NCBI GenBank assembly: GCA_902515185.1
Contig: CABXTN010000003.1
Location: forward strand, 1 to 64,000
DNA length: 64,000 nucleotides
Direction: 5' to 3'
Origin: an uncultured Pelagibacteraceae bacterium
GTDB taxonomy: Bacteria; Pseudomonadota; Alphaproteobacteria; Pelagibacterales; Pelagibacteraceae
The notes below the pieces were generated by a model. That model worked only from the letters and a program-made list of their open reading frames with translations, was not told the DNA's origin and ran no database searches. Below are positions 21,087-40,765 of the stretch, piece after piece (position 1 is the stretch's first letter; each line of letters opens with the position of its first letter). A program made the position numbers and the translations under genes.

Positions 21087-21668
21087 TTATATTAAATATC
21101 CATCTTTTGTACTTTTTAAGAATTTATCATCATTAAATTTTTCATTAATTTTTTTTCTTAATCTATAGACATGAGTTTCTACTGTATGAGTTTCTAAATT
21201 TTCAGAATAACCCCATACTTCTTTTTGTAAAATTTCAATTTTCTGTGGATATTTTTGATTTGCTAAATATAATATGATTTCAATTTCTCTTTCTGTTAAT
21301 TTTAAATTCTTTTTTTGATTAGATATGACCCTCGAATTTAAATCTACTTTATAATTTTTTACATTAAAATTTGCTTGAGAATTATATTTTTCCTTAAGTA
21401 AACTAATATTTACTTGGTCAATTAATGTCATAATATTAATAGGAAAATCTTTTAAAATAACAAGATTTTTAATATTTAAATTTGAATCGTTAATATTTTC
21501 TTTTGACAATACTATCGAATTTTTTTGGATCTTATTTTCTTTATATTGTTTAAGTAACTCTTCCTTTGCATCATAGTTAATCACTTCAAATTTAAGGAAG
21601 TCTTTAATTTCAAAAAGAATATTATATAAAGTTTTAAAATTTAATATATTAACTTGTGATTTAAACAT
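21087..21668 (-). CDS. Winged-helix (OmpR/PhoB-type) DNA-binding protein with degenerate receiver-like N-terminus
   Basis: C-terminal LKLTEREIEIILYLA...VWGYSENLETHTVETHVYRLRKKI; N-terminus lacks phospho-acceptor motifs. Confidence 0.8.
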   Translation of the reverse strand: MFKSQVNILNFKTLYNILFEIKDFLKFEVINYDAKEELLKQYKENKIQKNSIVLSKENINDSNLNIKNLVILKDFPINIMTLIDQVNISLLKEKYNSQANFNVKNYKVDLNSRVISNQKKNLKLTEREIEIILYLANQKYPQKIEILQKEVWGYSENLETHTVETHVYRLRKKINEKFNDDKFLKSTKDGYLI

Positions 21669-38657: not shown

Positions 38658-39659
38658 TTAGTTATCTTTTACAAACTTTATTAAATATTCTACCATATTA
38701 GGATCAGTTTGTGGTAAAACACCATGACCCAAATTAAATATATATGGGTGATCTTTGAAAACTTCTTTATACTTTTTCACCTCATTCTTAAGTGATTGTT
38801 TGTCAACAAGTAAAGCTCTTGGATCTATTCCACCTTGTACAGGTATATGAATATCTTTTACAATCTTTTTAGGTTCGATATTATAGTCAATACTGATTAC
38901 ATCTGGGTTGACTTTTTCGACAAATTTTTTAAAATTTTTAATATTTCTGGGAAAACAAATAACGGGTACATCTAAACTTTTGGTAAAATCAACTATTTCC
39001 TTAGTTGGCTGATATACATATTTTTCTAAGTCTTTTTCGCTAAGCAACCCTGCCCAACTATCAAAAATTTGAATTACTGTTGCACCATTTCTAACTTGAT
39101 ATTTTATATGAATTTTAAGATATTCTTTTAATATACTTAAAATATTATTATTTAAATTTTTATCTTTAAAAAAATTTTTTTTAAGATTTTTTTTTGGTGA
39201 AATTCTATTAATCATATAAACCAATAATGTCCAAGGGGCGCCAACAAATCCTATGAGGTCTTTTTTTTCTAAGATTTTATTATTTGATGTTTTTTTAATT
39301 GACTCATAAACTGGTTTTAATTTATTTATAAAATTACTCTTTTTAATAATTAAACTTGATTTGTCATTAAAGTCTCCTAATTGAGGCCCTAATCCTTTTG
39401 TAAAATTTAATTTTTGACCTAACCCATATGGAACCATTAATATATCTGAAAATATGATAGCAGCGTCGAAATCAAACCTTTTGATAGGTTGTAGTGTTAT
39501 TTCTGGTACAAGTTTATTATTTAAACATAGTTTAACAAAATTTTTATTTTTTTTTCTAATTTTTCTAAATTCAGGAAGGTATCTACCAGCCTGTCTCATT
39601 AACCATATAGGTTTATAAGATATATCCTTTTTCAAAATGCATTTTTTAATAGGAGTCAT
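38658..39659 (-). CDS. hemE: Uroporphyrinogen decarboxylase
   Basis: KPIWLMRQAGRYLPEFR, GFVGAPWTLLVYM, FNLGHGVLPQTDP. Confidence 0.97.
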   Translation of the reverse strand: MTPIKKCILKKDISYKPIWLMRQAGRYLPEFRKIRKKNKNFVKLCLNNKLVPEITLQPIKRFDFDAAIIFSDILMVPYGLGQKLNFTKGLGPQLGDFNDKSSLIIKKSNFINKLKPVYESIKKTSNNKILEKKDLIGFVGAPWTLLVYMINRISPKKNLKKNFFKDKNLNNNILSILKEYLKIHIKYQVRNGATVIQIFDSWAGLLSEKDLEKYVYQPTKEIVDFTKSLDVPVICFPRNIKNFKKFVEKVNPDVISIDYNIEPKKIVKDIHIPVQGGIDPRALLVDKQSLKNEVKKYKEVFKDHPYIFNLGHGVLPQTDPNMVEYLIKFVKDN

Positions 39660-39940
39660 AATATATAATTATATAACCTTAGTATTAGTTTATTGTGTTG
39701 TTAATAACGTTAATTAATTTTTATTAACCTTTTTTCCAATAACTATCCACAGGCATGTTTTCTAAAAAACTAATAATAAAAGGAAAAAAACATATTTTTA
39801 ATACTTATATTTATAGTTAAAAACTCTTATAAACATGTTTAAATTTGTTAATTAAATTAGTTTTTTTCACTTTTATAACAATAATATTCAAATTTTACTT
39901 AAATACGTTTATTATTAAATGCTTATAAACATATTTATAC
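39660..39940. other. oriC: Putative chromosomal replication origin (oriC)
   Basis: 281-bp very AT-rich gap between hemE and ppsR/CC0001-type gene, the position of oriC in Caulobacter and Rickettsia; one near-consensus DnaA box (ctatccaca at 39743-39751), AT-rich repeats, transcription diverges from it. Confidence 0.8.
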
Positions 39941-40765
39941 ATGAATAATCCATATCAAATTTACCTTATTTCTGATTCCACTGGTGAAACTCTAGATAGA
40001 ATTTTTTTAGCTCTCAAAGCTCAATTTAAAAATTTTTTATATGAAACAAATCATTTTTCTTTTACAAGAACCGAAAATCAAATTCTAAAAATATTAGAAA
40101 ATACAGAAAAAGATAAAAAAGTTATTATACTCTACACAATTGTAGATAATAATTTATCAAAATTTCTTGAGGTAGAGACAAAAAAAAAAAGAATTCCTTG
40201 TTTTGGTGTTCTGGGAGACTTAATTCTAAGCTTTTCTAAATTATTAAACCAAGAGGCATCATTTAAACCTAGTGGGCAACATGCTTTGGACGACGAATAT
40301 TATAAAAGAATTGAGGCTATACAATTTACTATGAACCATGATGATGGAAATCTTTCTAGTGATGTAATTAAGTCAGACATAATTCTTCTCGGAGTTAGTA
40401 GAACAAGTAAAACACCAACCTCTATTTATTTGGCAAATAAAGGTTTTAAGGTTTCAAATATCCCTTTAGTTAACGAAAATTCTATACCTAGTAATATTAG
40501 AGAGGGAAATAATAAAAATTGTATAATAGGCTTAACGGCGGAACCAGATAGATTGGTAGAAATTAGAAAAAATAGAATGAATTCTTTAAGAGATAATTCA
40601 AGCACGAATTATACAAGTTTAGATAAAATTTCAAAAGAAGTGGAACAAGCTAAGAAAACTTTCCAAAAATATAAATGGCCAGTTATCGATGTAACTAGAA
40701 AGTCAGTAGAGGAAACTGCTGCATCCGTTATAAAAATTTACGAAATAAGTAAGAAAAATGTTTGA
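39941..40765 (+). CDS. Pyruvate,phosphate dikinase / PEP synthase regulatory kinase-pyrophosphorylase (DUF299)
   Basis: YLISDSTGETLDRI, LLGVSRTSKTPTSIYLANKGFKVSNIPLV. Confidence 0.95.
   Translation: MNNPYQIYLISDSTGETLDRIFLALKAQFKNFLYETNHFSFTRTENQILKILENTEKDKKVIILYTIVDNNLSKFLEVETKKKRIPCFGVLGDLILSFSKLLNQEASFKPSGQHALDDEYYKRIEAIQFTMNHDDGNLSSDVIKSDIILLGVSRTSKTPTSIYLANKGFKVSNIPLVNENSIPSNIREGNNKNCIIGLTAEPDRLVEIRKNRMNSLRDNSSTNYTSLDKISKEVEQAKKTFQKYKWPVIDVTRKSVEETAASVIKIYEISKKNV

Follow-up and report, generated by a model that had tools for sequence, protein, structure and literature searches.

The chromosomal origins of Caulobacter (Cori) and Rickettsia prowazekii (384 bp, 82.5% A+T) share the boundary genes hemE and COG1806 (PMC1914354). 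Some origins of this hemE/COG1806 type lack CtrA sites, which are not obligatory (PMC1914354), and the Caulobacter origin uses weak DnaA sites, the G-boxes and W-boxes (PMC4468827). The published search rules for a basal unwinding system (BUS), the unwinding element built from DnaA-trios, ask for a DnaA box with at least three NAN triplets no more than 16 bp away (PMC8287927). For SAR11 (Pelagibacteraceae), no description of oriC was found in the open-access literature searched; DoriC may hold a prediction.

SAR11 bacteria are among the most abundant cells on Earth. Metagenomic growth estimates rely on origin-to-terminus coverage, for which a precisely placed SAR11 origin would be a fixed anchor; in one such study, SAR11 was anchored on a coverage minimum, not on a mapped origin (PMC9589681). 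The gap between hemE and ppsR described below is, judging from its sequence, very probably the oriC of a SAR11 genome, a placement well supported by synteny, by the skew minimum of a relative, by a unique cluster of DnaA boxes and by a conserved motif of the unwinding type. What appears to be new is that the boxes are A/T-shifted as a set and that a trio array is conserved beside them; the origin itself would be of a known kind and in the expected place.

Gene Context of the hemE/ppsR Gap

The window, a 64,000-nucleotide stretch of DNA, represents contig C3 of a 1.04-Mb assembly in 45 contigs, to which single-cell genomes and MAGs of Pelagibacteraceae (SAR11) are the nearest named relatives. 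It carries rho, hemJ (UPF0093), a ferrochelatase gene and hemE on the minus strand to the left of the gap, and genes for Kinase-PPPase (COG1806/PpsR), Maf, aroE, coaE and an RNase_T/dnaQ-type exonuclease on the plus strand to its right, followed by SecB on the minus strand. These Pfam assignments bear out the gene order read in the initial annotation, which had also called the 281-bp gap A/T-rich and the longest spacer of the window. The gap spans exactly 39660–39940 and is indeed the longest spacer in the window when listed ORFs of at least 80 aa are considered; in the closed relative G012, the corresponding gap ranks 43rd of 753 genome-wide and is not extreme, the median intergenic spacer being 33 bp. 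The composition is likewise as described, at 84.0% A+T against 71.8% for the window, and only 0.24% of 281-bp windows are equally A/T-rich; among 30 tabulated relatives, the hemE/ppsR region ranges from 79 to 87% A+T.

Adjacent and divergent hemE and ppsR genes, 261–287 bp apart, border 102 distinct SAR11 gaps, and this synteny is kept in every relative with both genes readable. Lying between hemE and COG1806 and exceeding the window average in A+T, the gap is best filed as an alphaproteobacterial oriC of the hemE/COG1806 type that lacks both CtrA sites and DnaA boxes of exact spelling. The features are listed in Table 1.

Table 1. Features of the putative oriC region (positions in the window; box counts refer to the 102 SAR11 gaps).
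Feature	Positions	Strand	Description
Putative oriC (hemE/ppsR intergenic gap)	39660..39940	.	281 bp, 84% A+T
hemE, left boundary	38658..39659	-	TIGR01464 above cut-off; PF01208
ppsR (COG1806, kinase/pyrophosphorylase), right boundary	39941..40765	+	PF03618, E 1.4e-88
Very A/T-rich hemE-side flank	39660..39679	.	AATATATAATTATATAACCT, adjoins trio array
DnaA-trio array (putative)	39680..39694	+	TAG TAT TAG TTT ATT; first three are perfect TAN
Spacer, trio array to B1	39695..39698	+	GTGT; position -4 is G/A in 99% of relatives
Candidate slot B1	39699..39707	-	TTATTAACA; box (at most 2 mismatches) in 75/102 relatives, 48 as TTATTCACA
Candidate slot B2	39721..39729	+	TTATTAACC, degenerate in window genome; box in 47/102 relatives
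Candidate slot B3	39732..39740	+	TTTTCCAAT, degenerate in window genome; box in 34/102 relatives
Candidate slot B4	39743..39751	+	CTATCCACA, box of the initial annotation; 65/102 relatives, mostly TTATTAACA
Candidate slot B5	39827..39835	+	TTATAAACA; 47/102 relatives
Candidate slot B6	39846..39854	-	TAATTAACA; 82/102 relatives, 64 as TTATTAACA; most conserved slot
Candidate slot B7	39923..39931	+	TTATAAACA, directly before ppsR start; 61/102 relatives

DnaA Boxes

The only site in the gap within one mismatch of TTATCCACA is the box at B4, as had been found by eye; four more sites within two mismatches (at 39696 and 39699 on the minus strand and at 39827 and 39923 on the plus strand) had been missed. 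The 102 distinct SAR11 gaps were extracted and compared with expectations from dinucleotide shuffles. The most enriched 9-mer, TTATTAACA, occurs in 88 of the 102 gaps (8.2 expected) and TTATTCACA in 51 (0.6 expected), and exact TTATCCACA occurs in one. The SAR11 box profile is TTAT[T/A/C][A/C]ACA, mostly TTATTAACA, and the pattern TTAT[ACT][AC]ACA is present in every gap, with a mean of 3.06 per gap versus 0.16 in dinucleotide-preserving shuffles. Seven candidate box slots keep their positions across the 102 gaps; the starts of B2, B3 and B4 are spaced 11 bp apart on one strand, and B2, B3 and B6 of the window genome are three mismatches from TTATCCACA. The initial description of the DnaA-box content as strongly reduced is not borne out: candidate boxes are numerous, conserved in position and spelled TTATTAACA, TTATTCACA or TTATAAACA. 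The count made by eye is right, but the scarcity of exact boxes reflects drift in spelling rather than loss.

A profile trained on the relatives identified the gap as the densest place in the window (at threshold 8, 5 hits where 281 bp of the window hold 0.30 on average). In G012, which was left out of the box profile, the gap is the sole 281-bp region with three TTAT[ACT][AC]ACA sites, of which there are 215 genome-wide, and no other intergenic stretch among the 753 holds two or more; because the pattern was chosen after viewing the same gaps, this result is a strong ranking and not an independent test. A box cluster unmatched elsewhere in the genome is therefore seen in G012 with the SAR11 spelling but not with exact TTATCCACA. 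The genome under study contains ten exact TTATCCACA sites, none of them on the contig of the window, so that an exact search is uninformative, and origins such as that of SAR11 are missed by TTATCCACA searches. Its DnaA aligns to solved structures of this protein and has a canonical domain IV with the recognition helix RDHTTVIHS; the canonical helix suggests an unaltered recognition code and weak SAR11 boxes.

A TTGAAGCTT-type motif between slots B4 and B5 was observed in about 42 of the 102 relatives' gaps versus 0.1 expected and is absent from the window; it is possibly a candidate binding site of some further factor.

A Conserved, Putative DnaA-Trio Array

On the plus strand of the window, the trios TAG TAT TAG TTT ATT lead toward B1 through GTGT to the box TGTTAATAA, and the last two (TTT, ATT) are imperfect. 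Across the 102 relatives, T is found at -19, -16, -13, -10 and -7 from B1 at frequencies of 0.91, 0.99, 0.99, 0.95 and 0.87, respectively; A follows the trio T in 93% at -15 and 84% at -6, and G occupies the third trio place in 79% at -17 and 57% at -11. This period-3 pattern persists in 28 gaps that are less than 75% mutually identical (column-permutation p 0.0004), and an array of four trios with a box occurs in 79 of the 102 real gaps versus 17% of shuffled gaps. TAG TAT TAG at 39680–39688 and the box at 39699–39707 (2 mismatches) are 10 bp apart, in line with a BUS search that allows a box at most 2 mismatches. A coding signal was rejected as the source of the periodicity: the distance from the array to the hemE start varies from 37 to 43 bp, so that the array does not follow a coding frame, whereas the distance from trio to box is fixed. 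By their sequence, the period-3 thymines beside B1 make up a putative DnaA-trio (BUS) unwinding element.

Thirty loci were read as a sample of the class Alphaproteobacteria, and hemE and ppsR are adjacent and divergent in 29 of them. A strict BUS search, in which a near-consensus box was required, succeeded in only 6 of the 29; the trios were then tested directly, with the other strand and the rest of the gap as controls. A run of three T[AGT]G triplets, oriented as in SAR11, lies on the hemE side in 18 of these 29 diverse gaps (L243–L271); neither the other strand (0/29) nor the remainder of the gap (0/29) has one, and shuffles give 3%. In GC-rich alphaproteobacteria the array is spelled TGG/TAG/TTG. 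In f2, a sister family of the same taxonomic order, the genomes listed (L233, L235–L242) gave no ppsR match, and at the one locus examined with Pfam (L233), maf lies across the gap from hemE; the family still has the array (e.g., TAGTAGTAGTAGTTG, and TAGTAGTAG-like arrays). The occurrence of the array both in this family and in the class sample indicates that the hemE-side trio element is probably ancestral.

CtrA, IHF and Methylation Sites

The gap contains no TTAA-N7-TTAA, as was initially noted, though TTAA occurs 11 times; in the 102 gaps, this spacing is found 0.35 times per gap versus 0.30 in shuffles, i.e., at chance level. A search with the NCBIfam model for CtrA peaked at 133 bits where 350 are required, the matches being other OmpR-type regulators, and no ctrA ortholog was found in Pelagibacter by Brilli et al. 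(PMC2877005); on both grounds, the absence of CtrA sites is expected. A 193-aa protein encoded at 21087–21668 on the minus strand of the window, ~18 kb from the origin, has an OmpR-type winged helix and no Pfam receiver match, and both G012 and a second relative, G082, have a similar short OmpR-type gene at a distance of ~18 kb from ppsR; at 25 bits against the cut-off of 350, the 193-aa protein was rejected as CtrA. The exact IHF consensus WATCAANNNNTTR is absent from the gap of the window and present in 17 of the 102 relatives (0.17 per gap versus 0.09 shuffled); the genome has three HU/IHF-family genes, and GcrA is present. A CcrM homolog has been reported in SAR11 (PMC3973325), and the CcrM methylation site GANTC is depleted in the gaps (0.01 per gap versus 0.11 in shuffles; 1 of 102 gaps).

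Position on the Chromosome

The genome under study is in 45 contigs, and the skew was therefore measured in relatives. In G012, a closed relative of the same genus (1,343,202 bp), the rebuilt cumulative GC skew shows a broad minimum plateau at ~1.22–1.32 Mb (~100 kb wide) and a maximum, on the terminus side, at ~616 kb. The plateau includes the hemE/ppsR gap, whose end is at 1,262,209; the GC-skew check proposed in the initial annotation, applied to this relative, agrees with the gap at a resolution of tens of kilobases (about 50 kb). At third-position four-fold sites, strand-corrected, the T/A breakpoint fits best at 1.261–1.262 Mb, on the gap; the G/C breakpoint, a weaker fit, is best at 1.215 Mb, 47 kb off, with a log-likelihood 2.4 above that of the gap. 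Gene-strand bias has its minimum at 1.235 Mb. In G082, of which 640 of 1,438 kb were sampled, the cumulative skew reaches its lowest values at 620–880 kb; ppsR lies at 910 kb.

Proposed Mechanism and Alternative Explanations

From the anatomy of the gap and the work on B. subtilis, E. coli and H. pylori summarised in PMC8287927, we infer the following course of initiation. DnaA would occupy B1 and the inner boxes B2–B7, which are mostly A/T-rich and probably weak. From B1, ATP-DnaA would extend leftward, toward hemE, along one strand of the trio array, stretch the trios and thereby open the hemE-side flank, which is likely to be melted first; the helicase would be loaded after this opening, and CtrA would no longer take part. 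DnaA binding, the weak affinity of the variant boxes, the site and direction of melting and a start of replication here in vivo are all predicted from the DNA sequence.

The skew and strand data bear on the possibility that the origin lies elsewhere, e.g., nearer dnaA, and that the gap is no more than the promoter region of the divergent hemE and ppsR genes, carrying DnaA-regulated sites. Both the G/C breakpoint at four-fold sites and the gene-strand minimum are displaced by up to 47 kb toward dnaA, which is at 1.198 Mb in G012, ~64 kb from the gap (the dnaA–ppsR distance is 62–64 kb in both G012 and G082), and both promoters must fit in the gap. However, no TTAT[ACT][AC]ACA was found in the up to ~380 bp looked at upstream of dnaA, G012 has no second intergenic stretch with two boxes, period-3 trio arrays are not a property of promoters, and the gap has been kept at 261–287 bp in streamlined genomes (median spacer of 33 bp in G012); we consider this explanation improbable. 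That the gap is an ancestral origin in decay, initiation having moved or become partly independent of DnaA, is what a strongly reduced box content would suggest, and it would accommodate both the near absence of exact TTATCCACA from the 102 gaps and the CtrA and IHF-type sites at or near chance. Decay would, however, have erased the slots, their spacing and the trio array, all of which are far above shuffles in the 102 gaps, and the DnaA protein is intact, its DNA-binding domain being of the canonical type, so that such decay is very improbable. Short A/T motifs arise easily in a region of this composition, and the boxes might be a matter of composition only, with the period-3 thymines a coding or RNA feature such as an upstream hemE start or a leader; this is contradicted by the excess of boxes over dinucleotide-preserving shuffles, by hemE-to-B1 distances that vary by non-multiples of three while the trios stay fixed to the box, and by the recurrence of the array in GC-rich alphaproteobacteria, and we regard it as hardly credible.

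The explanation that we hold with high confidence is that the gap is oriC, inherited in place from the alphaproteobacterial ancestor; by the proposed mechanism it would be opened by DnaA through the trios, with CtrA no longer involved. The initial identification of the gap as oriC is accordingly supported as to its location and its missing CtrA sites, but not as to the reduced boxes. A more specific proposal, whose chances we judge to be evenly balanced, is that the SAR11 origin has been re-tuned to weak A/T-rich boxes (TTATTAACA) while DnaA stayed canonical and CtrA is absent, giving a minimal origin of trios and low-affinity sites, its firing set mainly by the level of DnaA-ATP and its array ancestral across the class. 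A small origin without CtrA sites is a possible test case for the DnaA-trio mechanism.

Comparison with Described Origins

In SAR11, box and trios are presumably placed on the strands in the way that R1 and the unwinding element are in E. coli. With the BUS of B. subtilis and many other bacterial origins, the gap shares conserved T-A trios and a DnaA box within 16 bp (PMC8287927); it differs in that the box is TTATTAACA or TTATTCACA, the trios are TAN and not strictly TAG, and unwinding is predicted from sequence. Like the Caulobacter origin with its G- and W-boxes (PMC4468827), it would be an alphaproteobacterial origin with weak sites, the weakness being inferred in SAR11; the Caulobacter G-boxes carry a T-to-G change tied to competition with CtrA, whereas the SAR11 boxes carry C-to-A/T changes and no CtrA was found. 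The closest likeness in boundary genes, A/T-rich gap and DnaA-box cluster is to the Caulobacter and Rickettsia oriC (PMC1914354), relative to which the SAR11 gap is shorter (281 bp), has boxes shifted to TTATTAACA-type spellings, and is without CtrA sites, a CtrA-family match over the cut-off or an exact IHF consensus.
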